Source: Desulfovibrio gilichinskyi
GTDB lineage: Bacteria > Desulfobacterota > Desulfovibrionia > Desulfovibrionales > Desulfovibrionaceae
Length of the DNA: 64,000 nucleotides
Reading direction: 5' to 3'
Assembly: GCF_900177375.1 (NCBI RefSeq)
Contig: NZ_FWZU01000005.1
Location: 62,001-126,000 of the forward strand
This document shows, in pieces, positions 13,371-56,938 of the stretch. The position numbers were made by a program, and so were the translations under genes. Each line of letters begins with the position of its first letter. Position 1 is the stretch's first letter. Under the pieces are notes generated by a model, which saw nothing but the letters and a program-made list of their open reading frames with translations, ran no database searches and was not told the origin of the DNA.

Positions 13371-13463
13371 TTGGTGTCCTTTAAAAAGATCTTTCTTTTA
13401 GGTAGACTAACAGTCGCTTTTCAATAGTTCAACACTATGATTGGCTATGCAGTATATTTTGTA

Positions 13464-13491
13464 TTGAACTGTCTTTTCGCTAAATTATAAT
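13464..13491 (+). promoter_or_regulatory. Probable sigma-70 promoter of the DUF748 gene
   Basis: TTGAAC (13464-13469) and a perfect TATAAT (13486-13491) are separated by 16 bases, 46 bases before the chosen start at 13538. The site lies in the divergent region between this gene and the ntr operon. Confidence 0.6.
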
Positions 13492-13537
13492 GTAAAAGAT
13501 TATTGTGATGGTTAATCAAACAGGGACGGAGATTCGT

Positions 13538-16500
13538 ATGCTGAAAGATATATATATGAAATGGAAAAATTTGGATCGTAAAATTCGCTGGGGTTCGATT
13601 TTTTCTTCAGTTTTTATTGTGTACACTTTAATCGGATTTTTGCTTGTTCCGCTTATATTAAAGAGTGTCATCCGAAATAAGTTGCCGGAGTTGCTTAGTC
13701 GCCCGGTAGAGATTAAGGATGCCGGATTTAATCCGCTAAATCTGGACCTGCATCTCGAAGGGTTTAGAATCGGCAAAAAAAACGGTGAAGGGAATCTTTT
13801 TTCCTTTAAATCTTTTGATGTTAATTTTGATTCATTCTCACTTTTCAGACTTTCCGCTATATTTGATGATCTTATAATAAATGACCCTCAAATTGATATA
13901 ACTCTTTTCCCGGATGGCAGCAGTGTTTCAGATCTTTTTTCCGGGGATGACGGTAAAGCTGAGAAAAAAAGTACGAGCTTCTTCCCGTTTATCGTACGCA
14001 ATCTTTTGGTAAGTAACGGAACCTGTAAAATCTATGATGATTACAGGCATTTTCAGCATGTTGTTTCCGACTTGAATCTGGCTGTCCCTTTCACTTCATC
14101 TCTTGCCGGTGACAGTAATGAATTTGTTCAGCCTTCGCTTTCAATGGTTATAAACGGAACTCCGTTTGTTCTAAAGGGTAATACGTTACCGTTTAAAAAT
14201 ACACTTCATACCGACTTCAATTTTACTTTAGAGAAGGCTGAGCTCGGTGAGTACTGGGTCTATCTTCCTATTTATAACACTACTGTTCTGAAAAGCGGAA
14301 CCCTCAGTGCTGATTTAAATCTGAGCTTTGAGCGCAGTGAAAACTCGATGCCTACAATGATGCTGGGTGGAAAGTTCTTTATTAGAGATTTTGATTTGGA
14401 ACGTAAAAGCAAGAGTCCACTCTTAAAATTCAAACAGCTTGATATTGATATCGCCGAGTTCGGTCTTTTGCGAAGAGTTTTTAAAATTAAATCTGTTAAT
14501 TTAACGGAACCGTTTTTCAAAATAGCACTAAATCCGGACGGATCTCCTGATATACTGGATATTCTGCCTAAGCCCGTTTCTGCCGGTCAGAATGCAACTG
14601 CTGATCACTCCCCTCAAAAAGAGGAAGAAAAAGGTCCGGATTTATTGGCTGAAATCGGAAGTATGAGCGTCACCGGCGGGACTGTTGATTTCACCGATAA
14701 CGCTTTCGGCAATGGGTTTACGAAAGTAATAGGGCCGGTTTCGGTTACGGCTGAAAATCTAAGTACCGAAAAAGGCAAGGCTGGAACCTACAGCGTTAAT
14801 GTAGGGAATGAAGGCGGCGAAGTTGTAAAAGTTGGCGGCTCACTGGGGCTGATTCCACTTGCAGTTAAAGGTTTTGCCTCTGTCACAAATCTAAACGTTC
14901 CTGATTATGAAAAATACATGGAAGATTCTGTCCCGCTTGCTGTTACATCCGGTAAAATCGCTCTAGGAACCAATTTCAACATAGCTCCTGACGATAACGG
15001 GCTTATACGGCTGGAAGGCATAAAGCTGGATGTGAAAGATTTTACTCTCAGTCCGAAGGGTGGAGGAGACCCGTTGATCTCGCTCGGAGGGTTTGCCGCT
15101 TCCAACGGAACTGTAGATGTAGGAGAAAAGTCGGTAGTTATCGATTCTGTTGATTTGCATAAGGCTCTGATTAAATTGATGCGTGATAGCAAAGGGATTG
15201 ATCTTATAAAGCTGATGGAAAAGCATCAGCAAACCATTGATGCGAAGAAAGGAATTGTTCTTGTAGGGAATGCTACAGAGCCTTCTTTAAAGGAGATTCA
15301 TCCCGCAGCGGAAGCAAGTTCTGATAAATCCGATGCGGGAGCCTGGAAGGTTGCGATAAACAGTGTAAATCTTACCGATTCATCTTTTGGTCTGGTAGAT
15401 AATGCTGCAGCGAAAAAGACGACAACCGATATCAGTGAATTGCATGGCTCCGTCAAAGGAATAAGTTTTCCTGAGAACAAGCCTTTAATCCTTACTTTAG
15501 AAGGTGTTATTAATAAAAGAGGAAACTTAAAAGTCAGCGGACGGGGAGTCTTATCCCCTGTTTCAGTTTCCGGAGACTTGTTTGTCCGTAAGCTTAGACT
15601 GCGTGATTTTAACGGCTATCTGCCCCCTGAAATGCAGATGAATATTGCGCGCGGGCATATTGATGTCTCCGGACAATGGACTTTTGATGCAGAAGATAAA
15701 GCAATAGCAACGTATAAAGGTAAGGCTCAGGTTAAAGATCTGCTTTTGCGGGACAGCAAAGGGGATAAACAGTTCTTTCATCTATACGAGCTTGCCGTAA
15801 GAGATATTGATTTCACTTCCGATCCTTTTAAAGTGAACGTGCGACTTATAGACGTGCTTTCTCCTGAGGTGCTGGTGGACAAAGAGGCCGACGGTACATT
15901 TAATATTTCAAGAATTCTTACCGGTAAGCTTGCGGTTCCAGTTGATGAAAACGTTGTGCAGGAACAGGCACAGGCCGCTGCGTCAAAAGTTGAGGTCGGC
16001 GGAGCTGGGAATTCTTTAGCTGCCGATTCTGCAAATGCCGGTTCGGTGGCAAATTCCACTGCGGCGGAAACCGGTTCTTCGGCAAGTGCTGATAATTTTA
16101 TTTTCTTAAATAAAATAGCGATGACTAACGGAACTGTTTTATTCCAAGATCATACTGTTTCTCCTGTTTTTGAGCTGGATATCACCAAAATGATATCTGC
16201 CGTGCGCGGGCTTGAACTTCCACACGGTAAACGGACAGACTTGTCTTTTAACGCAACATTTGATCAGCAGGCTCCGCTTGTTGCAGAAGGATATCTACAG
16301 CCAACGGATGACGGTGCTGATACAGATTTGAAAGTTACACTTATTAATCTGGATATGACTCAGCTTTCCCCCTATACCAGAAAATTTATAGCCTATCCCG
16401 TAAGCAAAGGAATGCTCAGTGCGGATGTGGCAGTAAGTCTTAAGGGTAAAATTTTGTCTACAAATAATGTTTTTGATATTTATCAGTTTGATGTTGGGAA

Positions 16501-19981: not shown

Positions 19982-20539
19982 TTATTTTTGACTACTGCCT
20001 TTGAGAAGCTCTAAAATCTGGCTGGAAATTTGTTGCACTTCGCCCTGAGCCGCTACAACTTTCTGCTGAGCTGCCTCAACTTCAACTAATGCCGTTGATT
20101 TTTCATCATCAGTTGCTGCTTTGCTGGATTTATTTTGCGCAGAGGTGAGTTCTTCGCGGGCTTGTTCAACCTTTTCCTGCGCCTCAGTCAGCTTCTTTTT
20201 AAGTTCTTTAAGAGATTGTGAATCTGCGCTTTCAGATGGCTCGGCTCCTGCTCCTTTTCCAGTCTTTGCCGCACCTGCTTCCTTTTTTTCATCCGCATCG
20301 GTTGAGTCTGAATCGGTTTCGCTCTTGTCACCGCTTGCAGCTTTATCGGTTTTTTCGGACTGTGAGGCATTGTAAAGAGTGCGCGCTTCGTCGGATATTT
20401 CTACTTTTGTATCAGATTTATCAGATGTTCCGGCTGCGGATTTCTGTTCCGCCGCTTTTGTTTCATCAACATGAACATTGAATACACTGTCTGTTTTCTG
20501 ACCAAAGAAACCTGCGCCTGCATACATATCGATTTTCAT
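19982..20539 (-). CDS. Coiled-coil protein of unknown function, paralogue 1
   Basis: 185 residues with no signal peptide. Three parts are visible: a conserved N-terminal head (about 1-60) with VFNVHVDET and KVEISDEARTLYNAS; a low-complexity Ser/Asp/Lys/Ala linker (about 60-110); and a coiled-coil tail (about 110-180, LKKKLTEAQEKVEQAREEL). The 191-residue gene 338 bases upstream has the same head, linker and tail, so they are tandem paralogues. The 'ISDEAR' phrase recalls FlxA-like and flagellar-associated small proteins, a weak resemblance only. AAGGAAGA precedes the ATG. The shared hairpin at 19921-19958 ends it. Confidence 0.6.
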   Translation of the reverse strand: MKIDMYAGAGFFGQKTDSVFNVHVDETKAAEQKSAAGTSDKSDTKVEISDEARTLYNASQSEKTDKAASGDKSETDSDSTDADEKKEAGAAKTGKGAGAEPSESADSQSLKELKKKLTEAQEKVEQAREELTSAQNKSSKAATDDEKSTALVEVEAAQQKVVAAQGEVQQISSQILELLKGSSQK

Positions 20540-20877
20540 TTTTCTTCCTTATCTAAGCGAGGTGGATTAATTGGGCTTATGGGGAATAAGTTTAGTTTAT
20601 TATTCTGTTTATCGGTATGCGGCTTTGAAACTTTAGGATTTTTGTTAGGAAATATTAATTTTTATTAAGATATGAGGGGGGTAGTCGATTTTTGGGGAGT
20701 TGTTGGGCTGGTAGGTAATGGAAATGACCGCTGGAACTTAATTGCCGACGGACTTTTATCCTTATTAAAATAAGTAAAAGTTGTGCTTTCTTAGTTAAAT
20801 ATATGTGTTGCCAATTACTTCGCTTAATTTTTGAAATATAGTAAAAATTGATTGAGTTAAGTATGGCCCTTATATGA
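20540..20877. other. Gene-free spacer between the tandem paralogues
   Basis: 338 bases. No credible gene. CTTATT/AATAAG around 20760-20775 could form a weak AT-rich hairpin downstream of the second paralogue; it is too weak to call a terminator. A promoter for the first paralogue is expected here but not clearly seen. Confidence 0.45.
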
Positions 20878-21453
20878 TCAAATTTCGTTAATTTCACTCT
20901 TGATATCCAGGATTTGCTTGGAAATATCCTGTATTTTATCTTGCGCAGAAGAAACCTCTTGTTGAGCTGCTTCAACTTCAGTTGCTGTCGCTTCCTCTTC
21001 TTTTTCAGTCTTTGCACGAGCTGCTTCAGCTTGAGAGCGGATTAATTTTTCTTGAGCCTTTTCAAGCTTTACTTGGGCCGCATCAAGTTTTTCGTTAGCC
21101 GCAGTCAGCATTTTTTGAAGTTCTTTAATCTGTTGCTGTGTGTTTTCAGAATCCTCGGTCCCATCTTTTTCTTCAGTCTTTACTGATTCGTTTTTTTCCG
21201 TTTCGCCTGCATCGGTTTGAGCGGATGATTCAGTTTTGCTCTGGTCACTGTTTTCAGCTTTTCCGGTCTGTGAGGCATTGTAAAGAGCACGTCCTTTTTC
21301 GGAGATTTCTACCTGTGTATCAGATTTATCAAATAACACCGCCGTTGAGTGCTGCAGTGTAGTTTTTGTTTCATCAACATGAACATTGAATATGTTATTA
21401 GTTTTTGAGTCTGAAGATCCCGAACCAGAATCTATAAATAATTCAATTTTCAT
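20878..21453 (-). CDS. Coiled-coil protein of unknown function, paralogue 2
   Basis: 191 residues with the same plan as the neighbouring 185-residue protein: head with IFNVHVDETKT and QVEISEKGRALYNASQTGK, a Ser/Glu/Lys/Asp linker, then a coiled-coil tail (about 105-185, LQKMLTAANEKLDAAQVKLE) ending QDISKQILDIKSEI. The tails of both copies end with a similar QI-L segment. No signal peptide, membrane segment or known catalytic motif is seen. A strong ribosome site, AGAGGAGG, lies 5 bases before the ATG, suggesting good expression. Function unknown; head conservation with a variable linker suggests a structural or adaptor role. Confidence 0.6.
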   Translation of the reverse strand: MKIELFIDSGSGSSDSKTNNIFNVHVDETKTTLQHSTAVLFDKSDTQVEISEKGRALYNASQTGKAENSDQSKTESSAQTDAGETEKNESVKTEEKDGTEDSENTQQQIKELQKMLTAANEKLDAAQVKLEKAQEKLIRSQAEAARAKTEKEEEATATEVEAAQQEVSSAQDKIQDISKQILDIKSEINEI

Positions 21454-44236: not shown

Positions 44237-45760
44237 ATGACTGACAATCGTACTTGTTATAATTTTTCAGATTTATCCATAAATATATTTTATGTGCTGG
44301 GTATAGTCGCTTTGTCTACAGCTGTACGGGCTCTCTCACTTGAGTATGTAGAAATAGGCGGGGACTCGCTTTCTGTTTGGGAAAATGTTGTTAACCTTGT
44401 TAATAACGGCAGTTACATCGAGTGGACTCATCATACTATCAGATGGGCTATCAACCTGCCGCTGTATTTGATGCTTAAAGCATTCGGAACGGCTTCCACT
44501 AATTATTATATTTTACCGATTCTTTATTCTGCGATCAGTGCTGTGCTTGTTTTTTATGCCGGCTCTGTTCTGAAAGATAGACACTTCGGCTTTCTCTCAG
44601 CTCTGCTCCTTATTCTATACCCCAAAATGACTACAATGGGCAGTCAGCTCTGGCCTGGGCTATACGAAATGACCTATTTACTGGGAGGTGTTCTTGCCCT
44701 GCTTTACTGGCGCAAGTATGGTGGATGGCATCTGCTCGCCATTGCAGGAATACTTGCCGGATGTGCATGGGGTTCGAGAGTTACCAGTATTTATTATGGT
44801 CCCGGAATTTTGGCCTTACTTTACCTGGGCAAAAAAAGATTGAGACCAATACTTATTTTTTCTGTTTTTTTCTTAGCTGTTGTCGTGCTTGAATGGTTTT
44901 GTTTTTATAGCATAACAGGAAGGGCTCTAGGGAAATTTAGCATTATTCTTCGCAATCATGTTTCGCAAGGTCAATTGCTAATAACATCCGGTGAATATCT
45001 GCTTAATTTTCTAAATCTCATAAAATTAAGAGGACTTTTAATCGTATTTTTGGCTGGATTTGCGGTCTCCGTCTGGTTTCTGAAACGAGGCGATGATAAT
45101 GAAAAATGTATATCTATTTTGTTTCTGGGCGGCCTGTTTTTTAACGTATTTATGATATCCAGTTTGCACCCCCTTAAACTTGCAGCACCAATCGGCAGTA
45201 GGTACCTTACCGCTGGTACGCCATACTTGGTAATGATTCTTTTGTTAGGACTCAGGAAGTGGTATGAATCCTCCCCGCGCGCTGCAAAATTTTTTAAGTA
45301 TGGTTTGATTATTGCTTTTGCCGCATTTACATTGAAAGAGGTTCCCTCGCAGAATACGTTCAGTCGATTGCAGGAAGATTTACAAAACGGACGCATCATT
45401 ACTGAAGAAAAAATTCCGGTTCTTATGCGATACACTGCATGGTCTCCGAATATTATTGAGCAAAGCGTGATGAGCTTATTCGGGTATGAGAAGCAGGGAA
45501 GGCTCAAGATAAACGAAGATATAAAAATGGCGAAGAATGCCCGCCGGATGCGCATCATGCTTTTCGGAAAGCAGCCGGATGAAAATTACAAGCCTGAAAA
45601 TATTAATGGATATTACTATTTCTATTCTGGTAATGAAGACGACTTGGCTAAGTCCTCACGTGTCGGTATTTCCGATTTCGACCGCAAGGGGCATAAATTG
45701 ATGATAATTCCTAAAACATCACTACCGCAAGATCTTTTGAAAGGGGCTCCGATAAAATGA
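44237..45760 (+). CDS. GT39-type membrane glycosyltransferase
   Basis: 507 residues with about ten hydrophobic helices from residue 14 to about 360, then a soluble C-terminal tail of about 130. The first loop carries an acidic pair (VEIGGDSLSVWENV), the place of the catalytic aspartates in PMT/ArnT-like GT39 enzymes, which move sugars from polyprenyl phosphates to periplasmic acceptors. The next gene, overlapping by 4 bases, is a polyprenyl-phosphate sugar synthase-like GT2, the usual donor maker, and GtrA follows. The acceptor is unknown: lipid A, O-antigen or protein. Confidence 0.78.
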   Translation: MTDNRTCYNFSDLSINIFYVLGIVALSTAVRALSLEYVEIGGDSLSVWENVVNLVNNGSYIEWTHHTIRWAINLPLYLMLKAFGTASTNYYILPILYSAISAVLVFYAGSVLKDRHFGFLSALLLILYPKMTTMGSQLWPGLYEMTYLLGGVLALLYWRKYGGWHLLAIAGILAGCAWGSRVTSIYYGPGILALLYLGKKRLRPILIFSVFFLAVVVLEWFCFYSITGRALGKFSIILRNHVSQGQLLITSGEYLLNFLNLIKLRGLLIVFLAGFAVSVWFLKRGDDNEKCISILFLGGLFFNVFMISSLHPLKLAAPIGSRYLTAGTPYLVMILLLGLRKWYESSPRAAKFFKYGLIIAFAAFTLKEVPSQNTFSRLQEDLQNGRIITEEKIPVLMRYTAWSPNIIEQSVMSLFGYEKQGRLKINEDIKMAKNARRMRIMLFGKQPDENYKPENINGYYYFYSGNEDDLAKSSRVGISDFDRKGHKLMIIPKTSLPQDLLKGAPIK

Positions 45761-46731
45761 AAACAGCCGTTTTAATTCCATGTTTGAATGAAGAAGAAGC
45801 CATTACAAGTGTTGTTCGTGATTTTACTGAGCAATTACCGGGGTGTGTAATTTACGTTTATGATAACGGTTCAACTGATAGAACTGTTGAGGTCGCACGG
45901 GCTGCCGGAGCCTTTGTTGCTACGGAGAAAAGACGCGGTAAAGGTAATGTCGTAAGCCGCATGTTCGCAGATATTGATGCGGATATTTATGTGCTGGTAG
46001 ATGGTGATGATACGTATGATGCTGCCGCCGCTCCGGCCATGGTTGAAAGACTCTTGAGCAATAATTTAGATATGGTTGTAGGCGTCCGCGATCATAAAGA
46101 TGAAGATGAAGCATACAGATCAGGGCATCAGGCCGGAAATGCTGTCTTTAATAAGTTTCTGGGCGTGATATTTGAGAAGACTTTTACAGATATTTTTTCC
46201 GGGTATCGTGTCTTTTCAAAACGATTTGTAAAATCGTTCCCCTGCTTAAGCCGCGGATTTGAAATTGAAATGGAAATGAGCATTCATTCAATTACTGCCA
46301 GACTTCCTGTTGAAGAAATGGTTACAACTTACGGTAAGCGTCCGGAAGGAAGCCATAGTAAGCTGAATACATACAAAGACGGAATGCGTATTTTTTGGAC
46401 GATGTTGCAACTGTTCAAACATATTTTTCCGCTCAAATTCTATGCTGGAATCGGGGGTGTTTTGGCTCTGATTTCTCTGGCTCTGGGGCTTCCTATTGTC
46501 GGAGAATGGGTGATTACCGGGCTTGTTCTAAAGTTACCTACCGCTGTGCTTGCTGCGTCAATCGGCATTATTGCCTGTTTATCTATTGCGATCGGAATTA
46601 TTCTGGATTGTGTAAGCAAAGGGCATATGGAAATGAGGAGGCTGGAATATTTAAACTTCACTTCGCCTGCGGTAATTTGTCCGGACTGCTGTCCAAAAGA
46701 TAATTCTGATGGTGGCGCTATTGTTAAGTAG
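45757..46731 (+). CDS. GT2 glycosyltransferase, polyprenyl-phosphate sugar synthase type
   Basis: 324 residues: an N-terminal GT-A domain (VLIPCLNEEEAITSVV, YDNGSTDRT, the nucleotide-binding LVDGDDTYDA, FSGYRVFSKRF) and two C-terminal membrane helices (about 233-255 and 265-290). This is the plan of DPM1/GtrB enzymes that load a sugar onto undecaprenyl phosphate at the cytoplasmic face. The start codon overlaps the GT39 stop (ATGA), and GtrA overlaps its end, so the three work as a lipid-linked sugar relay. Confidence 0.9.
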   Translation: MKTAVLIPCLNEEEAITSVVRDFTEQLPGCVIYVYDNGSTDRTVEVARAAGAFVATEKRRGKGNVVSRMFADIDADIYVLVDGDDTYDAAAAPAMVERLLSNNLDMVVGVRDHKDEDEAYRSGHQAGNAVFNKFLGVIFEKTFTDIFSGYRVFSKRFVKSFPCLSRGFEIEMEMSIHSITARLPVEEMVTTYGKRPEGSHSKLNTYKDGMRIFWTMLQLFKHIFPLKFYAGIGGVLALISLALGLPIVGEWVITGLVLKLPTAVLAASIGIIACLSIAIGIILDCVSKGHMEMRRLEYLNFTSPAVICPDCCPKDNSDGGAIVK

Positions 46732-47095
46732 CAGGTTTTTGCGTTTTTGCTGTATCGGAGGACTGGGGTTTATTATTTACTCTGCGGCGACATATGCTGG
46801 TGTGGGGTTAGGTCTCCCCTCATTATACGCAGTTATCCCCGGGATAATAATTGCGTTGGCGGTTTGTTACAAGGCTCATCATGCCTTCACATTTCGTAAA
46901 GAAGGCAAAATTTCTTTACGAGGCTGGTATAAATTCTTGATCGCTAACGGGGTCGGAAGCGTAATTAATTATGGCTGTTATGCGATAGTTTTACTAATGT
47001 GGCCTACTATTCCTTTGATTATTCCTCTGGCTGTCGGTTCAGGGATGGCTCTTATTGCAAATTATATTTTATCAGCACGTTATGTCTTTCGCTGA
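46709..47095 (+). CDS. GtrA-family membrane protein
   Basis: 128 residues with four hydrophobic helices (FCCIGGLGFIIYSAATYAGV, LYAVIPGIIIALAVCY, FLIANGVGSVINYGCYAIVL, IIPLAVGSGMALIANYILS) and the family ending SARYVFR. GtrA proteins are thought to flip polyprenyl-phosphate sugars. The start lies 23 bases inside the preceding GT2 gene, so translation is probably coupled. It is the third element of a GT39-GT2-GtrA set. Confidence 0.88.
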   Translation: MVALLLSSRFLRFCCIGGLGFIIYSAATYAGVGLGLPSLYAVIPGIIIALAVCYKAHHAFTFRKEGKISLRGWYKFLIANGVGSVINYGCYAIVLLMWPTIPLIIPLAVGSGMALIANYILSARYVFR

Positions 47096-47233: not shown

Positions 47234-48268
47234 GTGAATGATATAACAGCAATTAATCCGAAACGAATTCTGGTCTGCCAATTGCGGCAAATCGGCGATG
47301 TCGTTTTAGCCACAGCATCCGTATATTTGTTGCATAAAAAATATCCGCAGGCTGAGATTCATGTATACACTGAAGAGAAGTGCGCTCCGGTTTTTGATAA
47401 TAATCCTGCAGTTAAGTATGTCTGGTCCATAAATAAGGAGGAGCTGCGGAATCCATTTAAAGCATTAGCTTTTTATCGTAAAGTCGGAAAAGCCGGTTAT
47501 GATCTGGTTGTGGATTTTCAGCAGCTTCCCAGATGTCGGTGGATGCTTTTCTTTTGTGGTGCTCCTGTGCGGCTTTCATTTAATCCTCCATGGTATAATC
47601 GTTTCTTATATACGAACTGGCCTGAATCTATTCCCGGGGGTTACGCGGCAAAATATAAGGCTGGGGTTCTGAGTCCTTTAGGAATAGAATGGGGAGATGC
47701 TAAGCCTCAGATTTTTGTCAGCGAAAAGGAACGGGAGGAAGCTAGATCATGTCTTGCTTCACTTGGTGTAAAAGATGATGAGCTTCTAATTACTTTAGAT
47801 CCGTCTCACAGAAGATATACCCGACGATGGCCGGCAGAACATTATGGAAAATTAATTTCATTGCTGGCTGAAAAACGAAAAGATATTAAATTTTTTATAA
47901 TTTATGGACCAGGCGAGAAAGACGTTGCGTTAAAAGTTAAATCAGTATCAACCCTTGAAAGCAGATGTGTAATGCTTGAGAAAGCCGGGTCATTGCGGCT
48001 TATGGCTGCGCTTATTGAAAGAGCTGTTTTACATATAGGAAACTGTTCCGCGCCGAGGCATTTTGCCGTTGGGGTCGGGACTCCGAGTATAACTATCCCG
48101 GGTTCATCGAGCAGTGCGTGGACTTTTCCTTCTCCTGATCACATAGAAGTGGTGCCTGAGCTTGAATGTCAGCCATGCAGCAGTGAAAGTTGTTCCAGAG
48201 GTGATCTGGCATGTCTTAAAGATCTATCTCCTGAAGATGTGCTTGCGAAGGTTTTAGAAAAAATTTGA
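47234..48268 (+). CDS. GT9 heptosyltransferase-like glycosyltransferase
   Basis: 344 residues with a GT-B fold like ADP-heptose:LPS heptosyltransferases: the N-terminal RILVCQLRQIGDVVLATASVYLLHKKYP, then LITLDPSHRRYTRRWPAEHYGKLI, and a donor-site region with HIGNCSAPRHFAVGVGTPSITIPGSS. It probably adds a heptose or related sugar to the LPS core. Near the end, CQPCSSESCSRGDLACL gives four clustered cysteines, common in this family. The start is GTG with a rather distant AGTGAG. An intramembrane protease gene follows after 48 bases. Confidence 0.85.
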   Translation: MNDITAINPKRILVCQLRQIGDVVLATASVYLLHKKYPQAEIHVYTEEKCAPVFDNNPAVKYVWSINKEELRNPFKALAFYRKVGKAGYDLVVDFQQLPRCRWMLFFCGAPVRLSFNPPWYNRFLYTNWPESIPGGYAAKYKAGVLSPLGIEWGDAKPQIFVSEKEREEARSCLASLGVKDDELLITLDPSHRRYTRRWPAEHYGKLISLLAEKRKDIKFFIIYGPGEKDVALKVKSVSTLESRCVMLEKAGSLRLMAALIERAVLHIGNCSAPRHFAVGVGTPSITIPGSSSSAWTFPSPDHIEVVPELECQPCSSESCSRGDLACLKDLSPEDVLAKVLEKI

Positions 48269-48316: not shown

Positions 48317-48769
48317 ATGGTTTATGAATTTTTTGTAAACAGAATCCTTAAAGGAATTTGGAACCAGTTGAAATGGGGAGCATGTAGTTTTACTGATCCT
48401 ATTTTTTATCTGTTTTTATCTTTTGGATTTGTCGGATTGTATGTACCCAGTCCTGATTTAAAGCTTTCGCTTGCATTGTTGTTTGCTAAGGCTTTTATAG
48501 AAGAGCTTTTTTTCCGATTTCTTCTTCAAGAGGGACTTGATCGTTTTTTCCGTTATGGGTACAGAGTCGGCCCTCTCAGCCTTGCTAATGTTCTTGCTTC
48601 ACTTGTTTTTTCCAGTATGCACTTGGTCAGTCAGCCTTTGAGCTGGGCTGCACTTACTTTTATTCCTTCACTTGCTTTTGGATTTATATGGCAACGCTAC
48701 CGTAGCGTTGTTCCGGGAACAATCATTCATTTTGCTTATAATGCCTTTTTGTTCTATCAGTTCATGTAA
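48317..48769 (+). CDS. Short glutamic-type (CAAX/CPBP) intramembrane protease, CTERM-system type
   Basis: 150 residues, mostly four or five membrane helices. The three catalytic motifs of the Abi/CPBP family are intact: EELFFR (EExxxR), FSSMH (FxxxH) and HFAYN (HxxxN). The protein is much shorter than general CPBP proteases and resembles the small enzymes that accompany GC-type C-terminal sorting signals; I recall these as 'JDVT-CTERM system' proteases (MrtJ), reported in Desulfovibrio among others. A matching target, with Gly-Cys, helix and basic tail, ends at 56862. The frame opens at 48290 without a ribosome site; AGGG 7 bases before the ATG at 48317 supports the shorter form. Confidence 0.75.
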   Translation: MVYEFFVNRILKGIWNQLKWGACSFTDPIFYLFLSFGFVGLYVPSPDLKLSLALLFAKAFIEELFFRFLLQEGLDRFFRYGYRVGPLSLANVLASLVFSSMHLVSQPLSWAALTFIPSLAFGFIWQRYRSVVPGTIIHFAYNAFLFYQFM

Positions 48770-48941
48770 ATTAAAATGTAAAGATGGCTGCGCTTGACGG
48801 ATTTTTGCAAGTATAGGATGATTCTTTCTATATATATCGAAGACGTAGCTGTTTGAAGAAATTATTTTGAAGTTTTGAATTTATATCAAAAACTTATTTT
48901 TTGAAAAATTATTCTTTCCGAATTGTACTTCGGTGGAGATT

Positions 48942-50945
48942 GTGAAACTGAATATGCTTAAATTATTATATAAAGTAGTTATTGCACTGGCTATAGCCAT
49001 TACCCTCCTGTCCTCAGGAGCTTTTGCTCAGCCTGAGGGCGGTGATTCTGTTCACGCAAATTTGGAAAGTATTTCTCTAGAAGAATTTATAAAATTTGTC
49101 GGGCGATATACCGGGCGGAATATTGTTTTTAATAAAGGAGCCTTACCGGGGACTCATGTAAGTATTTACGCTGGTCAGGCTTTGACTGAACCTGAACTTA
49201 TGGCTGTTTTTCAGCAAGTTCTTTCAGGCGCAGGTTTTTATGCTGTTACACGTGACAATGTAACTTATATACTGCCTTCCCGAGATGCCAAGTTGATTTC
49301 ACCTGACATTAAAGCAAATTCCTCAGGAGGTTCTGGAGAAGAGATTGTAACTTCTGTTTTTCAGCTCGCAGGGAAGATGGACCCGGATAAAGTTACAGCT
49401 CTTTTACAGCCGTTTTCGTCACAGATCGGATCTGTTGTATCGGTCCCCATGGCCGATGCTGTGCTTGTCCGCGATCTGCAGACAAATGTTGATAAAATGC
49501 GGAAACTGCTTGGAATTGTTCGTAAAGTCGGAGCCGGGCAGGATACGGCGATTATTGACTTGCAAAAAACAAGTGCAAAGTCCGTAGCCGCTAAGCTGGA
49601 GTCTTTTTATAAGAAACTTTCAACTGCCGGTAAAGTTGGTAACGTTCCTGTCATTGAACCTGTTGAATGGGCAAACAGCCTTCTTGTGTCAGGAAGCGCA
49701 GATCAGTTAACTACTATACGCGCTCTTGTTTCTAAGCTTGATAAGGCAACTGAATCATATTCAAAACTTAAAGTTTATCGTTTGCATAATATCGAAGCTG
49801 TTGTTGCCGGAGATGTTTTAAAGAGTCTGATTACCGGCGGCGGTATCCCTACGGCAAAAGGATCTGGTGAGAGTGGCGCAGCAACTAATACCGCCAAAAA
49901 AAATGATTCGCTAGGATCTGATAACAATGACGGAGTACAGGTTTCCGCGGATGAAACGACTAATACGCTGATTGTTATGGCCGATGCCTCTCAGCTCCCG
50001 CAAATAGATAAGTTTGTTGAACAGCTGGATCAGGCTCAGGATCAGGTTTATATAGAGGCACTTGTTCTTGAAACATCACTTTCTAATGCGAAAGAGTTCG
50101 GAGTGGAATGGGAGGGTGCTGTTAAAATGGGAAACAGCGTTTCTACCATCGGCTCCACTAAGACTTCTGAGAGTAATCTTGCTGGATATGCGGCAAATCC
50201 AAGTGCTATGCCCGGTGGCTTCTCCATGGGTGTTTTAGGTGATATGATTTCCTATGGGGGGAAGAGTTATCCGTCGATAGCGGCTTTAGTTAATTTCACC
50301 AAATCTTCTTCAGATTTTAATCTTATTTCAGCTCCGCAGATTATGACAATCGACAATTCAGAAGCAGAAATCTTTGTCGGTGAAAACAGGCCATATAAAA
50401 CAGGTGAGAGTACTACTACAGGATCGGGTGTAGTTTCAACGTATTCTTATAAAGATGTAGGTATTAAGCTTACCATCAAGCCGCACATTAATCGTAAGGA
50501 TGGTTTGATAAAACTTGAAGTTGCTCAGGAATATAACACTATGTCTACTGCAGGAACTCTTGATTTGCCTGTAACAAATGATCGCACCACTAAGACAACT
50601 ATTATTTTAGCTGACGGATCAACAATGGTCATCGGCGGTATGATCCAGTCTGAGCAGACTAGAGGGCAAAGCGGTGTCCCGTATCTTTCAGATTTACCTT
50701 TGCTTGGCTGGTTATTTAAAACGCAGTCCAACAGTGGATCGAAAAAAACTTTGATGGTTTTTCTGTCAGCCAGAATAATCAGGACAACCGAGCAGCTTGA
50801 AGCTCTCAGTAAGGCCAAAATGGACAAGTACCGCAATCAACGGGCCCGGTTTAACCAGTATATTGAGAAAGAATTTAATACTTACAAAAATAATGATGTT
50901 CCGACAGATGAACCTGAAATATCTTCAACCCAGTCTGATGGTTAA
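48942..50945 (+). CDS. gspD: Type II secretion secretin, GspD-like
   Basis: About 667 residues. A signal peptide (LLYKVVIALAIAITLLSSGAFA) is followed by an N0 domain (about 40-115), three KH-like N1-N3 modules (about 130-385, with VFQLAGKMDPDKVTALLQPF and YRLHNIEAVVAGDVLKSL) and the secretin barrel domain (about 410-625) ending in the hallmark VPYLSDLPLLGWLFK. It forms the outer-membrane channel of a type II system. The neighbouring gspE starts 12 bases after its stop. Starts at GTG 48933 or 48942 are possible; GGTGGAG favours 48942. No pilotin-binding S domain is obvious, and gspF, gspG and gspC are not in this window. Confidence 0.92.
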   Translation: MKLNMLKLLYKVVIALAIAITLLSSGAFAQPEGGDSVHANLESISLEEFIKFVGRYTGRNIVFNKGALPGTHVSIYAGQALTEPELMAVFQQVLSGAGFYAVTRDNVTYILPSRDAKLISPDIKANSSGGSGEEIVTSVFQLAGKMDPDKVTALLQPFSSQIGSVVSVPMADAVLVRDLQTNVDKMRKLLGIVRKVGAGQDTAIIDLQKTSAKSVAAKLESFYKKLSTAGKVGNVPVIEPVEWANSLLVSGSADQLTTIRALVSKLDKATESYSKLKVYRLHNIEAVVAGDVLKSLITGGGIPTAKGSGESGAATNTAKKNDSLGSDNNDGVQVSADETTNTLIVMADASQLPQIDKFVEQLDQAQDQVYIEALVLETSLSNAKEFGVEWEGAVKMGNSVSTIGSTKTSESNLAGYAANPSAMPGGFSMGVLGDMISYGGKSYPSIAALVNFTKSSSDFNLISAPQIMTIDNSEAEIFVGENRPYKTGESTTTGSGVVSTYSYKDVGIKLTIKPHINRKDGLIKLEVAQEYNTMSTAGTLDLPVTNDRTTKTTIILADGSTMVIGGMIQSEQTRGQSGVPYLSDLPLLGWLFKTQSNSGSKKTLMVFLSARIIRTTEQLEALSKAKMDKYRNQRARFNQYIEKEFNTYKNNDVPTDEPEISSTQSDG

Positions 50946-50957
50946 TAGGTCTTTAAA

Positions 50958-52442
50958 TTGAGAATCTCCTATGACCTTAGCAAGGTCCCTCGTGAAGTTG
51001 TGGATCTTTTTTTAACTTTCCCACAACGAAGTGAGTTTATTCCTGTGGAAGTCAGTGACCGCGAAATCAAGGTGCTGCTTCAGAATGAAAGTTCTTTACC
51101 TATGGCGGACTTTCTTGCGTGGAAGCTCGGGAAAAAGGTTACCACAGAAATTGTGGAAGAAGACCAGTTTTTTCCTCTGCTTGAGCAGGCACTGACTGTC
51201 TGGGAAGAAGAAAGTTCAATAGAATCTGAATCCGAGGAAGGCGGAGCAGGAGAAAACGGTGAAGACCTGCTGGGCTGGTCTCATGATGATGCTCCGATTG
51301 TTCGTCTTGTTAATAAGACAATGCATCAGGCCATAACCTCCGGAGCAAGTGATATCCATTTTGAGGGTCAGGGAAACAATTTTGTTGTTCGCTATCGACA
51401 GGATGGAGTGCTTAAAGCAGTAAAGCGTTTGGACAGAGGGTTACAGGCAACAATTATCGCCCGTATTAAAGTTATGGGTGAGATGGATGTTGCTGAAAGT
51501 CGTAAGCCGCAAGACGGCAGAATTTTTATTAAACTCGGGCAGAAAGAAGTTGATGTCCGTGTCTCTACAATTCCTACAATGAGCGGGGAAAAAGCTGTTC
51601 TGCGTATCCTTGACCGCTCTAAAAATATACTTAACCTCGAAGATTTAGGTCTTAAAGGTAAGGATCTTGAACTTTTCAGAAAAGTTCTGGCTCAGCCGCA
51701 TGGGATTATTCTTGTGACAGGTCCTACCGGGTCCGGCAAAACTACCAGTCTTTACGCAGGACTCAGTGAATTACCGCGTGAAGATAAAAATATTGTTACA
51801 GTCGAAGACCCTGTTGAATATCAGTTGTCCGGCATAAATCAGGTGCAGGTCAATAAGGCCGCGGGTATGACTTTTGCTACCACAATCCGTTCATTTCTAA
51901 GGCAGGACCCTGACATTATTCTGGTTGGTGAAATTCGTGATCAGGAAACGGCCAGTACGGCAGTTCAGGCTGCTCTTACAGGTCATCTTGTACTTTCCAC
52001 CTTGCACACTAATGACGCAGCAACGGCTGTCACCAGAATGCTTGATATGGGTATTGAACCGTTTCTGCTTGCATCTTCTCTTTCATTGGTTCTTGGGCAA
52101 AGGCTCGTCAGAGTTAACTGTCCACACTGTTCCAAAACAGTTCTGATTTCTGAACATACGATTAAGCTTTTTGAAGATATGGAAAACCTCCCTACGACTC
52201 AAACAGCCGGAGACGGTTGCGAGCATTGTAATTTTACCGGGTTCAAAGGTCGAAAAGGCGTTTACGAGTTAATCCCGGTAACCGAAGAAATGCGCGGGCT
52301 GATTATGGACGTTGTTTCTGCCGACCGCATTAAAGCATATGCCAAAGAGCAGGGGCGCGAAACTATGGTCGATCATGGAATCCGTCTTGTTCGTCAGGGA
52401 GTTACTACTCTTGAAGAAGTTGTCAGGGTTACAAAACTGTAA
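50958..52442 (+). CDS. gspE: Type II secretion ATPase, GspE-like
   Basis: 494 residues. An N-terminal domain (about 1-90) is followed by the secretion ATPase core: Walker A GPTGSGKTTS, an Asp box (NIVTVEDPVEYQL), Walker B DPDIILVGEIRD, a His box (GHLVLSTLHTNDA) and a C4 zinc motif (CPHC...CEHC). It powers pseudopilus assembly from the cytoplasm. The start is TTG, 12 bases after gspD, with AGGT before it. In this window gspE and gspD stand without the platform and pseudopilin genes, which must lie elsewhere if the system works. An oligosaccharyltransferase gene follows. Confidence 0.94.
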   Translation: MRISYDLSKVPREVVDLFLTFPQRSEFIPVEVSDREIKVLLQNESSLPMADFLAWKLGKKVTTEIVEEDQFFPLLEQALTVWEEESSIESESEEGGAGENGEDLLGWSHDDAPIVRLVNKTMHQAITSGASDIHFEGQGNNFVVRYRQDGVLKAVKRLDRGLQATIIARIKVMGEMDVAESRKPQDGRIFIKLGQKEVDVRVSTIPTMSGEKAVLRILDRSKNILNLEDLGLKGKDLELFRKVLAQPHGIILVTGPTGSGKTTSLYAGLSELPREDKNIVTVEDPVEYQLSGINQVQVNKAAGMTFATTIRSFLRQDPDIILVGEIRDQETASTAVQAALTGHLVLSTLHTNDAATAVTRMLDMGIEPFLLASSLSLVLGQRLVRVNCPHCSKTVLISEHTIKLFEDMENLPTTQTAGDGCEHCNFTGFKGRKGVYELIPVTEEMRGLIMDVVSADRIKAYAKEQGRETMVDHGIRLVRQGVTTLEEVVRVTKL

Positions 52443-52504
52443 TTGCACCATATTAACACATCTGATTTTTATCAAAATATTAGCATTTTAGAGTGGAGCT
52501 CAAC

Positions 52505-54616
52505 ATGAGGCAGGAATTTCAAAAACCGGCTTGGATGAATGATTGGAAAGTCTTTTTAATTTTTTCATTGATTTCTTTTGCTTTCGCATTTGGACTTAGG
52601 TGTCTTGATTTGCCTAAATGGAGTGACCCATCATTCATGGTTCATGGTGAATACATCATGGGAACACATGATGCATATTATTGGCTTGCTGGAGCAAAAG
52701 GGGTTGGAAGTGCCGTAGGCAATCCTATGTCGGAGCTGATACGTTTTCTCGGGAGTTTAACTGGTATTCAATACGGAAATATTGCGTTTTGGCTTCCGGC
52801 TGTATTTGCAGGTTTTTGTGCAATCGCCGCATTTTCGTGGGGTATGCTGGTTCGCGGTCCTTGGGTTGGGCTGGTAAGTGCAATATATGCGACATCAATT
52901 CCTGCGTATTACTTTCGAACTAGACTTTCATACTATGATACCGATGTCGTTACTCTCTTTTTCCCTCTTTTAATTTCTGTCCTGCTTGCAAGGTGGGTTA
53001 GCCAAGGAATTAGAACCTCGTGGCTTCCTCAAAAAGGAAAAGAAATAGAATTTAATCCTACACTCACTGATTATTGTCTTCCTATTTTAGCTGGAGCCAT
53101 AGCTGCGTATGGGAAATTATGGCATAGTGATGTTTTGACATTTGGGATCATGGTTGCTCTTATTGCAATTGGTCTTTCTGTTGTGTGCGGAACTAAGAAT
53201 AACCGTTCTGAGTTACTGCGTGGCCTAGTTTTATTTTTTTTGGTTGCCTTTGTCGGTTGGTTTGGTCTTGTACTCGCTGTTTTATTCCTGATTGTATTGT
53301 CTTTTCCAGCTGTCAGAAAGCATAAATTTTATAATAATACTTATTTGTATTTGTTAATTCTACTGGCCATTTTTGTCTTAAGTGGATTGGGGCAAGATCT
53401 TATTGCTGTGATTTCCGACAAAATTAGTGCTTATATTAAGCCAGTCGCAGATATTTCATCAGATATTTCTGGCCCACAATACCCGGGGATAGCTCAAAGT
53501 GTCATTGAAGCTCAAAATATAAGTTTTGATGCGTTGTTTGCAAATTTGACGGGAAGTACTCTTTTAGGATGGTTAGGATTTTTATCATTCGTTTTTGTAG
53601 TATTAGTTAGGCCAAATAGTATCTTTTTGGCTCCTTTTGCCGCAATAACTTTTGCAGCCGTTTATATGGGCGGGCGTTTTGCTATGTTCGGCGGCATTGC
53701 TTTGGGGCTTGGGCTAAGTTTTGCATTAGCTTGTTTTATTGAGCGTTATGCTAATTTTACAACAAATAAATTAGTATTAGGTGTTGTTCAGTCTTTAGTC
53801 ATGGTGGGCCTTCTTTTTTCAAATATAATGCCAATGTACGAAGGTGCTCCTGCAACTCCTATAATGGGGCAAAGTCACGCAAAAGCTTTGATTGAAGCTG
53901 GCAAGAAAATGCCCAATAATAGTACTGTTTGGACGTGGTGGGATTGGGGATATGCCACTATGTATTATTCTGGGGTTAATTCCTTTGCTAATGGGGGAAA
54001 TCATGCAGGGCGGACACTTTATCCATTAGCTTTTGTTTATACAACACCTAGTTGCGCACAAGCGAATCAAATGATTAAATTTTCAGCTGTTAACAAAAAT
54101 AATCCTGCAAATGTTTGGGATAAAATGTCAGGTAAAGATGTGGAAAAGATGATCAGTTCTTTTGCTGACGTTAATTACAATTTTAAGCCTAAGGGAAAAC
54201 AGTATATAGTTGTAACTTGGGAAAATTTACGTTTAGCTTATTGGATATTGTATTATGGTTCATGGGATACTTCCATAGGCGGAGGGGCGCACCCTGTTCA
54301 AAGTTTGATAACGACACCATTTACGCTTCAAGGTGAAACTGGTGTTATTGATATTGAAAATGAAGGCAAGGTAGATCTTTCAGGCTATATTATTCTAGAT
54401 AAATCCGGTACTAAAAGTAAATTTTTCCCCGCAAATAATGGTCCAACGCTTGTCTATAATAGCGTCGTAAGGCAAGGCTTTATGGTTGATAAGATGGAAA
54501 CTAGAAGTATGTTATTAAAGCTTCTTATCGGCAATCCACAAGACAAGAGTATTTCTTCGTTTTTTAAAGTCGTGTATGAAGATTTTCCAAGTGTAAGAGT
54601 TTTAGAAGTTTTATAA
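52505..54616 (+). CDS. STT3/PglB-type oligosaccharyltransferase
   Basis: 703 residues: about eleven to thirteen membrane helices over the first 440, then a periplasmic domain. Catalytic hallmarks are seen: the first-loop acidic motif GTHDAYYW (Asp56), the second YYDTDVV, and WWDWG at 478-482, the sequon-binding signature (WWDYG in Campylobacter PglB). The enzyme transfers a lipid-linked glycan en bloc to Asn in N-X-S/T. GGAG 6 bases before the ATG at 52505 fixes the start; an earlier in-frame GTG (52493) overlaps the GGAG. The next gene encodes an exported protein full of sequons. The gene is AT-richer than gspE (20 G/C in the 60 bases from 53341). Confidence 0.92.
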   Translation: MRQEFQKPAWMNDWKVFLIFSLISFAFAFGLRCLDLPKWSDPSFMVHGEYIMGTHDAYYWLAGAKGVGSAVGNPMSELIRFLGSLTGIQYGNIAFWLPAVFAGFCAIAAFSWGMLVRGPWVGLVSAIYATSIPAYYFRTRLSYYDTDVVTLFFPLLISVLLARWVSQGIRTSWLPQKGKEIEFNPTLTDYCLPILAGAIAAYGKLWHSDVLTFGIMVALIAIGLSVVCGTKNNRSELLRGLVLFFLVAFVGWFGLVLAVLFLIVLSFPAVRKHKFYNNTYLYLLILLAIFVLSGLGQDLIAVISDKISAYIKPVADISSDISGPQYPGIAQSVIEAQNISFDALFANLTGSTLLGWLGFLSFVFVVLVRPNSIFLAPFAAITFAAVYMGGRFAMFGGIALGLGLSFALACFIERYANFTTNKLVLGVVQSLVMVGLLFSNIMPMYEGAPATPIMGQSHAKALIEAGKKMPNNSTVWTWWDWGYATMYYSGVNSFANGGNHAGRTLYPLAFVYTTPSCAQANQMIKFSAVNKNNPANVWDKMSGKDVEKMISSFADVNYNFKPKGKQYIVVTWENLRLAYWILYYGSWDTSIGGGAHPVQSLITTPFTLQGETGVIDIENEGKVDLSGYIILDKSGTKSKFFPANNGPTLVYNSVVRQGFMVDKMETRSMLLKLLIGNPQDKSISSFFKVVYEDFPSVRVLEVL

Positions 54617-54754
54617 AAAAGATTGGTGTTTTATAAAAAAAATCTTGTACTTCGCTTTTTTCAGTGGTAGTTATTATCTCGTTAATGAAGAGGGAGTCTC
54701 GGATTGGCTGGGATATCATATCTTTATTTAAATTTTAACTAGGAGAGTTTTTTA

Positions 54755-56862
54755 ATGAAAAAACTTATTGCTCTTATTACAGTACTGCTTATGCTGGTGG
54801 CTTCCAGTGTATTCGCAGCTACTCAGAACCCTAATTCCCTTTCAGAGTATGTGCCTTCTGCGCTTTCAGGTACTACTGCCGCTGGTACAGCGACCGGTAA
54901 AATTGCATATGACGATGCTTATATGTATTTTACAGGATTTTCTACTAATGCAACTACTACAGTTCAAAATGCTGCTACAAATAACAAAAAAGGCGCTAAC
55001 GCAACTTTTGCTTATTACAATAGTCAATAACAGGTATTCTTGTTAACGGTACTGGCCTTGGTCGCGGAGTCAATGCTACGATTTCATCTTTCAACGGAAC
55101 AATTAACCCTGGTACAGAAGGTGACGTTTGGACAAAGTTGCAGCTTACAAACGCTACTAAAGCTAATGCAGTGCTTGTGACTGCTCCTTGGACCTTTGAT
55201 GCGTCTCTTCGTTCTGTTCCAGGTTTGATCTCTCTTGGAAGTAACAACGCAACTAACTCCACTTACTACTTTGTATCAGCAAATGATGCAAATATTCTGG
55301 TTGGTATTACCAACGGTACAGTAAACGGTACTGCTCCAGTAACTACCCAGAGAGGACAGAGCGGTAATGGTACATCCATAGCTGTAATGTACACTCCTGG
55401 CGATTTTGATGCAGCATCTGCTACTAAGACTACTCCTGACATTTATAATACCACATGGGATTATTATGCATATGGCGTAGACTCTGCAACTTCAAAACCA
55501 GCAATTGCAATTGCTCAGGTTAAGTTTGGTGCTTCTACTGCAACAACTGCTCAGGTTAAATACTACGACGAAATTGATTCTACTACTGGAACTCAGCCTG
55601 CAGCAACATGGACAGATTTTACTGTTACAAATACCGGTAACTATTTGAACCTGAGAAACGGTAACGTTTTCTTACTTCAGAATGCTACTGTAAATAATGA
55701 CAATAACCTGATCACTGGTACTATTTTTGACTATGTTGATGGTGATAAATTATTTGTTGTTATGATTAAATCAGGAACAACTCTTGCTACTACAGATTTA
55801 ACTAATCGTGGTTTCAAATTTGTTTACACTGGTTCTCTTGGATCTACTGGTAATGTAGGTAGTGCAACTGCTGGTTTGATGAACTTCTCCATTGATAATA
55901 ATCTTGATATTGATGGTAACATGGCTCGTTTCAATGGAACAACCTTCACTAAAGTAGGTACTTCATCTGCTAACTTTGAAGACTTGTCTTTGTCTGGTTA
56001 CAGAGTAGCACTTGCTAATACTAACCAGTTCGGCATTACTCAGTCTAACATGACTATGTATGACATAGACAATAACGTTTCTGGTAGCTTCATTGGTAAG
56101 CAGGCTGCTGACAAATCATTGTCTGTAGGTATTTATATGCCTGTCGTTTCATCCGTAGATCAGGGTGCATCACTTGCATTCCTTATTCCGAACCCAGCTG
56201 TAGCAGGTGATATTCTTAGAGCTAACTTAAGCTTTCAGGCTAATGCTTCTTTAGATCAAAATATTACTGCTAGAGTTGTTGACTTATCAGCTACTAACAA
56301 TACCTCTTACACTAAGACTGAACTCAGTGCTAGATGGAGCGGTGTTCCAGCTGAGTTTACTCCTTTAACTGATGTTAAGGGTGTAAGAGCTAAACTTCCT
56401 ACCATTGTTGCAAAGAATTCTTTGTACACATTCCAGTTCCCAGTCAAAGGTATTTGCGACAGAATTAGCAATTTGAGACTGTTAGAAGTTCCTACAACTG
56501 CATCTTCTTCTGCAAGAGCATTCTCCTATGCTGGATCTGCTCCAACTCCTTCTGTTGAAGGTTCATGGTGGATTTCTGAAGAAAGAGGGGATAGCTATAA
56601 AGGTCTAGATTCTGTTTTGTCTCCTGCAACTGCTCAAACTTACTATGTTAACTATGTTGTAAGAGATAACGGTGTCTTTGACTCTAATGCTACTGGTGAT
56701 CGTTATATCAGTGATCCAGTTGTTTTCGGTAGTGTACCTACTTCCAGCTCTTCTAGCTCATCAGGTTGTGTATTCAACCCTGCTGCTAGCTTCGGTCTGG
56801 AATGGTTGTTACTGATGCTCGCTCCTATGGTTGCTATCGCTCGTAGCCGCTTCAAGAAATAA
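54755..56862 (+). CDS. Sequon-rich exported surface protein with GC-type C-terminal sorting signal (frameshifted)
   Basis: A signal peptide (MKKLIALITVLLMLVASSVFA) and 70 more residues end at TAA 55028-55030. The protein continues in another frame from about 55024 (ITGILVNGTG) without a stop to 56862; a single extra A near 55026 would restore one 702-residue chain. The product is rich in Asn, Thr, Ser and Ala. It has about 23 N-X-S/T sites, only two cysteines in the mature part, and ends in Ser-rich linker, Gly-Cys, a hydrophobic helix (LEWLLLMLAPMVAIA) and RSRFKK: a tripartite GC-CTERM-like anchor. Codons are strongly biased to GCT, ACT, GGT and AAC, as in abundant proteins. AGGAG precedes the ATG; a strong terminator follows. 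An S-layer or adhesin role is inferred. Confidence 0.8.
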
Positions 56863-56910: not shown

Positions 56911-56938
56911 GAGGAGCTAACCTTACGGTTAGCTCCTC
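56911..56938 (+). terminator. Strong intrinsic terminator of the surface protein gene
   Basis: Perfect 12-base arms GAGGAGCTAACC (56911-56922) and GGTTAGCTCCTC (56927-56938), a TTAC loop, then TTTTATT. Confidence 0.93.

Follow-up and report, generated by a model that had tools for sequence, protein, structure and literature searches.

Can one run of genes specify how a protein is glycosylated, sorted and exported? The question is raised by a 64,000-nucleotide stretch of the genome of the sulfate reducer Desulfovibrio gilichinskyi (contig NZ_FWZU01000005.1, positions 62,001 to 126,000; referred to here as the window), in which five neighbouring plus-strand genes encode an MrtJ-type CPBP glutamic intramembrane protease, the type II secretin GspD, a GspE-type ATPase, an STT3/PglB-type oligosaccharyltransferase (OST) and a protein that is rich in N-X-S/T glycosylation sites (sequons) and carries a Gly-Cys tag at its C-terminus. 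Based on comparative sequence analysis, we consider it probable, at roughly 60%, that this is the maturation locus of a major, hypervariable surface glycoprotein, with a constant side comprising the protease and type II genes and a recombining side comprising the OST and the glycoprotein.

The five genes encode a protease, two type II components, an OST and a tagged protein

The kinds of protein that a preliminary description of the window had assigned to the five genes were recovered in profile searches. The protease (48317..48769, frame open from 48290) exceeds the curated cut-off of the MrtJ model NF033192 (82.8 versus 75 bits), and the start proposed for it at 48317 is backed by a methionine that is kept in the relatives, two of which have a stop codon just upstream. 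Residues E71-E72, R76, H111, H147 and N151 are invariant in an alignment of 16 sequences and make up the EExxxR, His and HxxxN elements, which we take to be the active-site residues of CPBP proteases. A relationship also exists to MrtS, named by NCBIfam as the Synerg-CTERM protease. The secretin (48933..50945) lies above the cut-off of the GspD model TIGR02517 (413.6 versus 351.35 bits). For the ATPase (50958..52442; PF00437), the GspE model TIGR02533 is the best-scoring NCBIfam model, yet the score stays under its cut-off (569.4 versus 630.25 bits). The OST (52493..54616) contains PF02516 (45.3 bits) and PF21436 (65 bits) above the Pfam cut-offs and gives a full-length profile match to the C. 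lari PglB structures (E 1.3e-34) with a conserved WWD motif. This motif and the catalytic Asp, Glu and Arg positions, presumably those of PglB catalysis, are invariant in 17 sequences and align with C. lari PglB. As the cut-off of the NCBIfam equivalog ProtGlycPglB (NF050801) is not reached (87 versus 1300 bits), we refer to the protein as an STT3-type OST and not as that equivalog.

The fifth gene does encode a sequon-rich, Gly-Cys-tagged protein as described earlier, but it is not a single open frame in this assembly. A first plus-strand frame (54755..55030) covers the signal peptide and the first 91 residues and was assigned by a profile match to family residues 1-82; a second (55024..56862), assigned by the family alignment and the sequon tests presented below, holds most of the sequons, the C-terminal domain and the 37-residue tag (56749..56859), which consists of a Ser run, the Gly-Cys pair, a helix and a basic tail.

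The gene order is kept in most genomes of the genus

The five-gene order that the preliminary description had singled out, protease-GspD-GspE-STT3-surface protein, is kept in 15 of the 17 genomes of the genus, D. gilichinskyi included, and the OST is present in all 17. A family 9 (heptosyltransferase-type) glycosyltransferase (PF01075; plus strand, 47234..48268) is the constant upstream neighbour of the protease, lying 5' of it in 15 of the 17 genomes and also in the displaced block of genome G012. This genome is one of the two exceptions: heptosyltransferase, protease, GspD and GspE remain together about 314 kb from the STT3 gene, which is followed by a different tagged protein of 1226 residues. 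In the other exception, G001, the protease adjoins STT3 and the type II genes are found on another contig, their products being 23-49% identical to those of the window. Neither genome has a full-length homologue of the sequon-rich protein, of which only the C-terminal domain is matched. Because the genus is one lineage, the 15 of 17 do not represent 15 independent events.

The union of STT3 and protease is a feature of this genus. Among ten genomes outside the genus with matches to both proteins, the listed places are on different contigs in nine and 2.6 Mb apart in one. A scan of named genomes for STT3 gave nine loci, two of them from the genus; in the fetched flanks of the other seven, tblastn found no protease, GspD, GspE or surface protein.

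Sequons are enriched in the surface protein family

The dense N-glycosylation sites noted earlier in the window protein are far above chance in its family. We scored 14 family members (8,620 residues after trimming; the window row consisting of the second frame only, genome G016 being excluded) against 2000 shuffles each and counted 305 N-X-S/T sites versus 144 expected by shuffling and 122 in the reversed sense (S/T-X-N). Each protein has 16-26 sequons and lies above its own shuffle mean, with 0 to 36 of the 2000 shuffles reaching the observed count. Where an alignment column has Asn in 10-14 rows, 154 of 232 Asn residues are in a sequon, as opposed to 28 of 238 in columns with Asn in one or two rows. 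Ala, Gly or Ser follows the Asn of 233 of 306 sequons, compared with 115 of 442 other Asn residues. These candidate N-[A/G/S]-T/S sites fit the site choice reported for Desulfovibrio PglBs, which are described as acting on N-X-T without an acidic residue at position -2, a native glycan site in D. gigas HmcA being TANGT (PMC4894442).

The same scoring was applied to a control set of 21 other Gly-Cys-tagged proteins of at least 250 residues from the fetched loci (18 from the genus, three from outside), which leaves aside two short carriers (122 and 141 residues), a partial one, carriers that were not fetched and three proteins of the D. gilichinskyi genome. The control set shows no excess (134 sites versus 169 expected and 185 reversed), so the enrichment is particular to this family, not a general property of tagged proteins. 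The tagged proteins of G012 and G001 were scored outside the control total; that of G001 has a slight excess only (16 versus 11.5). It could be argued that sequons accumulate as a by-product of Asn-, Thr- and Ala/Gly-rich repeats with no glycosylation taking place, and the family is indeed rich in Asn (7-10%) and Thr (9-13%). We regard this as very improbable, considering that shuffled and reversed controls of the same composition give less than half the sites, that conserved Asn columns are mostly sequons and that the OST gene is located directly 5' in all 15 genomes carrying the family.

Thirteen family members are 33-48% identical to the first alignment row over their full length. An AlphaFold2 model built from a three-sequence alignment is too poor to use (mean pLDDT 36.9), a profile search of the family against solved structures gave no match at E up to 1, Pfam detected no domain in the window's second frame or in two relatives scanned, and the second frame had no match in phage records. 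The C-terminal domain is shared with a family of proteins of about 1100 residues, represented in the D. gilichinskyi genome at C4:427934 (locus L129, about 5934) and by similar open reading frames (ORFs) elsewhere; the D. gilichinskyi member ends in a diverged tag, GCTVG instead of GCxxNP.

The OST and the surface protein diverge together

To compare the parts of the locus, we determined pairwise identities in the 15 genomes that retain the order. Protease, GspD and GspE vary comparatively little (mean identity 79%, 73% and 90%, respectively) and make up the constant side; the variable side is formed by the 3' portion of the OST gene together with the glycoprotein gene and the genes following it (STT3 52%, surface protein 39%). 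Mantel tests on the same genomes reveal that the divergence of STT3 correlates with that of the surface protein (r 0.41, p 0.004). No such correlation with the surface protein is seen for GspD (0.12, p 0.17), GspE (-0.06) or the protease (-0.05), and STT3 and GspD correlate weakly (0.21, p 0.07).

Six genome pairs were scanned for steps in DNA identity. In three close pairs, identity is high through GspE and falls sharply inside STT3, past which point they are about as unlike as any pair of the genus. In G002/G003 and G004/G011 the step lies near base 500 of the gene and coincides in part with an intrinsic boundary, as every pair has the first 150 STT3 residues conserved. In G000/G008 it lies near base 1500, immediately 3' of the WWD motif. 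The latter step is not at an intrinsic boundary, given that residues 151-500 remain 80-92% identical in this pair. In G002/G003, GspD and GspE are 95% and 99% identical, yet STT3 residues 201-350 are only about 50% identical (all-pair mean 33-51%). For the window's STT3, the drop in identity to the closest relative is located around base 1500 (about 53990). The fall is less sharp and starts from a lower level in G009/G007, and is shallow in G009/G006 and G015/G006. These patterns suggest that recombination exchanges the 3' portion of the OST gene and the glycoprotein gene together, as a cassette. The genes 3' of the surface gene vary between genomes as well. Of ten of their products scanned, taken from seven loci, eight are of types often encoded in glycan clusters (epimerase, aminotransferase, oxidoreductases, acyl- and acetyltransferases, glycosyltransferase), and the other two had no match.

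The Gly-Cys tag co-occurs with the MrtJ-like protease

The tag is highly conserved, with a mean column identity of 94% over its 37 residues in 16 aligned proteins, all built of Gly-Cys, a helix and a basic tail at the C-terminus; Gly-Cys is invariant in 16 of 16, as are most flanking residues. In a set of 199 genomes of the order, the tag profile (E up to 1e-4) occurs in 17 genomes from four genera, and each of these 17 genomes has a protease match (E up to 1e-12), in line with the earlier proposal that the protease accompanies the tag. The protease is also matched in fifteen other genomes that have no tag match. Within the genus, a threshold of E up to 0.01 gives 1-7 tag-profile matches per genome in all 17, the signal in G001 being weak. 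The D. gilichinskyi genome encodes four proteins with a GC-x-x-N-P tag and a fifth that is more diverged (judged by eye), two of which match the profile at that threshold. Beta-propeller and FG-GAP/Ig-like proteins are among the other carriers. With several tagged proteins per genome, the protease is not dedicated to one of them, and the four or five present here do not agree with a system built around one surface protein, as first proposed.

The tag does not reach the 27-bit cut-off of the JDVT-CTERM model (NF033191): the best score in the D. gilichinskyi genome is 15.5 bits, for another protein, and 17.8 bits among ten carriers scanned, and the model had no match on the second frame of the window protein. 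These low scores would suit an alternative in which the glycosylated protein stays in the inner membrane or periplasm, held by an uncut C-terminal helix, and the type II genes act on other proteins. However, a plain helix would not need a Gly-Cys pair and flanking residues that are invariant in 16 of 16 tags, nor does it account for the co-occurrence of tag and protease in 17 of 17 genomes; moreover, type II secretion is the route by which the related MYXO-CTERM proteins arrive at the surface (PMC11980579). We therefore judge this alternative improbable.

The link between protease and type II genes was followed outside the genus, where 18 genomes have a protease match and ten of these loci were read. 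It holds in part: type II or pseudopilin genes lie beside the MrtJ-like gene in four of the ten (L108, L110, L114 and L115, the protease of L115 scoring over the MrtJ cut-off), whereas six have no type II genes or could not be judged (one because of a contig end). In another family of the order (L112, L113, L116 and L122), the MrtJ-like gene is flanked on each side by a small conserved gene, gyrase or SelB-like genes lie close by, and neither type II genes nor a tag match were found.

The type II genes belong to the only type II system detected in the genome

The D. gilichinskyi genome contains one protein with GspF domains and one GspD match (E up to 1e-15), namely the GspD of the window. A single cluster, beyond the window and 39-49 kb downstream of the surface gene, encodes GspF, C, G, K, L and M as well as minor pseudopilins. 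Within this cluster GspG alone scores over its cut-off, GspF, C, K, L and M being assigned by best models below cut-off and the minor pseudopilins by the pilin motif. GspL and GspM (L075, 18129-19802) match only NCBIfam models named for Synergistota, again below cut-off. GspD and GspE of the window complete the cluster and are thus part of the one type II system detected in this genome. The single GspF-domain protein and the single GspD match rule out a system reserved for the surface protein.

The idea of a system serving one protein thus finds no support on the type II side, nor on the OST side, since STT3 relatives are present in 126 of the 199 genomes, 110 of them without a tag match. These numbers lend themselves to a different explanation, namely that a general-purpose OST and a general MrtJ/type II route merely share a neighbourhood, the surface protein being an abundant client of both and the gene order inherited, not functional. 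The separate location of STT3 and protease in ten genomes outside the genus, the several tagged clients per genome and the retention of STT3 without the sequon-rich protein in G001 and G012 are all compatible with it. Yet the order is kept in 15 genomes in spite of the low mean identities of STT3 and glycoprotein, the sequon excess is confined to the surface protein and absent from the 21 other tagged proteins, and correlated divergence is observed for the OST and the surface protein only. Taken together, we find this explanation unlikely.

A proposed maturation route

In the maturation locus that we favour, the surface protein would leave the cytoplasm through Sec export, directed by its signal peptide. 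Once in the periplasm, the neighbouring STT3/PglB enzyme would add glycans at many of the N-[A/G/S]-T/S sites; at this point the protein is probably still tethered in the inner membrane by its C-terminal helix. By analogy to the myxosortase model, the Cys of the tag would then probably be lipidated, and MrtJ would remove the helix in the inner membrane. The type II system, with secretin and ATPase encoded here, may subsequently carry the folded, lipid-anchored glycoprotein to the surface, as in the MYXO-CTERM model. The protease and the type II system would also serve other tagged proteins, and the glycosylation step appears fitted mainly to the surface glycoprotein. The order of events put forward in the preliminary description, export followed by cleavage, is unlikely; cleavage should precede type II export, because the protease is an intramembrane enzyme and because in the published myxosortase model type II transport follows predicted lipidation and cleavage, both of them at the inner membrane (PMC11980579). 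Of the initial interpretation as a whole, the gene order, the dense sequons, the pairing of tag and protease and, in part, the proximity of protease and type II genes find support, and the single-protein system and the order of steps do not.

A number of observations weigh against a maturation locus of this kind. The union of STT3 and protease is limited to one genus and hence to a single lineage, STT3 is widespread in genomes without a tag match, and in genome G149 six tag matches and a protease are not accompanied by an STT3 match. The tag is below the JDVT-CTERM cut-off, and the six of ten protease loci mentioned above lack type II genes or could not be judged. The tagged protein that follows STT3 in G012 shows no sequon excess (13 versus 12.0). 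With respect to recombination, the base-500 step is in part intrinsic, and OST and glycoprotein need not change equally, being 78% and 29% identical in G000/G008. Finally, the glycoprotein gene of the window itself is frameshifted.

Relation to known sorting and glycosylation systems

Each module of the locus is of a known kind; what is new is the gene arrangement and the paired variation of OST and acceptor. The founding in-silico paper is reportedly that of Haft from 2024. Both MrtJ with JDVT-CTERM and the myxosortase MrtX with MYXO-CTERM resemble our system in combining a CPBP glutamic intramembrane protease with a tag made of an invariant Cys, a helix and a basic tail, and type II secretion is reported for MYXO-CTERM proteins (PMC11980579). 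The MrtJ neighbourhoods described there come from beta- and gammaproteobacteria and comprise just two genes, those of MrtJ and of a single JDVT-CTERM protein (PMC11980579). Unlike these, the run of genes analyzed here also contains GspD, GspE, the OST and a sequon-rich client, its genome encodes several clients, and its tag falls below the JDVT-CTERM model. In Vibrio, too, an intramembrane protease, rhombosortase, cuts a C-terminal tag, GlyGly-CTERM, on surface proteins secreted by a type II system, but there the enzyme is a rhomboid serine protease, the motif is GlyGly and the titles and abstract openings make no link to an OST. In the titles and abstract openings searched, the union of an OST, type II secretion and CTERM sorting, or its occurrence in sulfate reducers, was not found described.

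The PglBs of D. gigas, D. desulfuricans and D. vulgaris are STT3-type OSTs from the same bacterial group that recognize a minimal N-X-T and do not need an acidic -2 residue; in that work the acceptors are engineered or foreign, with the one native site cited being in HmcA, whereas at our locus a multi-site candidate acceptor adjoins the OST (PMC4894442). Native acceptors of these enzymes, which have been studied for their relaxed site choice, are barely known. The surface protein is one candidate, each family member having 16-26 sites, among which N-[A/G/S]-T is naturally preferred. Furthermore, the 15 natural OST-acceptor pairs, some with apparent recombination breakpoints inside the OST, make the acceptor rules of a bacterial OST directly testable, and the locus also allows testing in which sequence glycosylation, lipidation, cleavage and type II export take place. 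In several families, gene order ties MrtJ-type sorting to type II secretion.

A more far-reaching proposal, which we offer tentatively, is that the locus specifies a bacterial counterpart of the haloarchaeal S-layer route, in which an abundant, densely N-glycosylated, lipid-anchored coat would be delivered by type II secretion and the acceptor-binding part of the OST would be swapped together with the coat, as a serotype-like switch of enzyme-acceptor pairs. The haloarchaeal route (AglB, archaeosortase) similarly joins STT3-type N-glycosylation to C-terminal sorting with lipid in an abundant surface protein (PMC11980579). It differs in having no outer membrane and an unrelated sorting enzyme, in place of the type II system and CPBP protease found here, and we do not claim membership. 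High abundance of our surface protein, as in an S-layer, is suggested by codon usage, a proxy only.

The surface-protein gene of the window is frameshifted in this assembly

The first frame of the surface gene extends from the ATG at 54755 to a TAA at 55028-55030 and the second is open from 55024, so that export signal and tag sit in different frames in this assembly. Fourteen relatives have a homologue at the corresponding position; in 13 of them the gene is a single open frame, and in the remaining one, G016, it is frameshifted within the signal peptide. The 13 relatives with one open frame rule out programmed frameshifting as the cause. The two frames may be due to a small indel arising by mutation or to a sequencing or assembly error. 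If the mutation is real, the strain has lost its coat protein and this copy of the locus no longer works, an explanation for the window alone that we rate at somewhat less than even odds. It accounts for the two frames and has a parallel in G016. On the other hand, an assembly error is possible and the other four genes are intact. Both halves keep a codon usage like that of ribosomal protein genes (0.71 and 0.76, with ribosomal genes at 0.66-0.78), meaning that a real loss would be recent; the second frame has the highest codon adaptation of the 47 ORFs in the window. Altogether, two of the 15 genomes carrying the sequon-rich family show frameshifts, at different places (D. gilichinskyi and G016, the latter at L041, about 13227-15451). 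Perhaps these reflect loss of a phage receptor or coat in culture, or else errors.

Further features of the window

Upstream of the heptosyltransferase, positions 44237-47095 encode a PMT/GT39-like membrane protein, a family 2 glycosyltransferase and a GtrA protein, which are found at this place in only part of the genus. The family 2 glycosyltransferase is closest to the model of the archaeal S-layer N-glycosyltransferase AglJ, at 211.5 bits with a cut-off of 325. On the 3' side of the surface gene, a hairpin scan detected a terminator-like hairpin of 12 pairs on the plus strand (56911..56938), the number of hairpin-type sites across the region being about at chance level (12 versus 9.3 in shuffles, standard deviation 3.3). 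Elsewhere in the window, at 19982-21453, two tandem paralogous minus-strand genes encode Lys/Glu-rich proteins of 185 and 191 residues.

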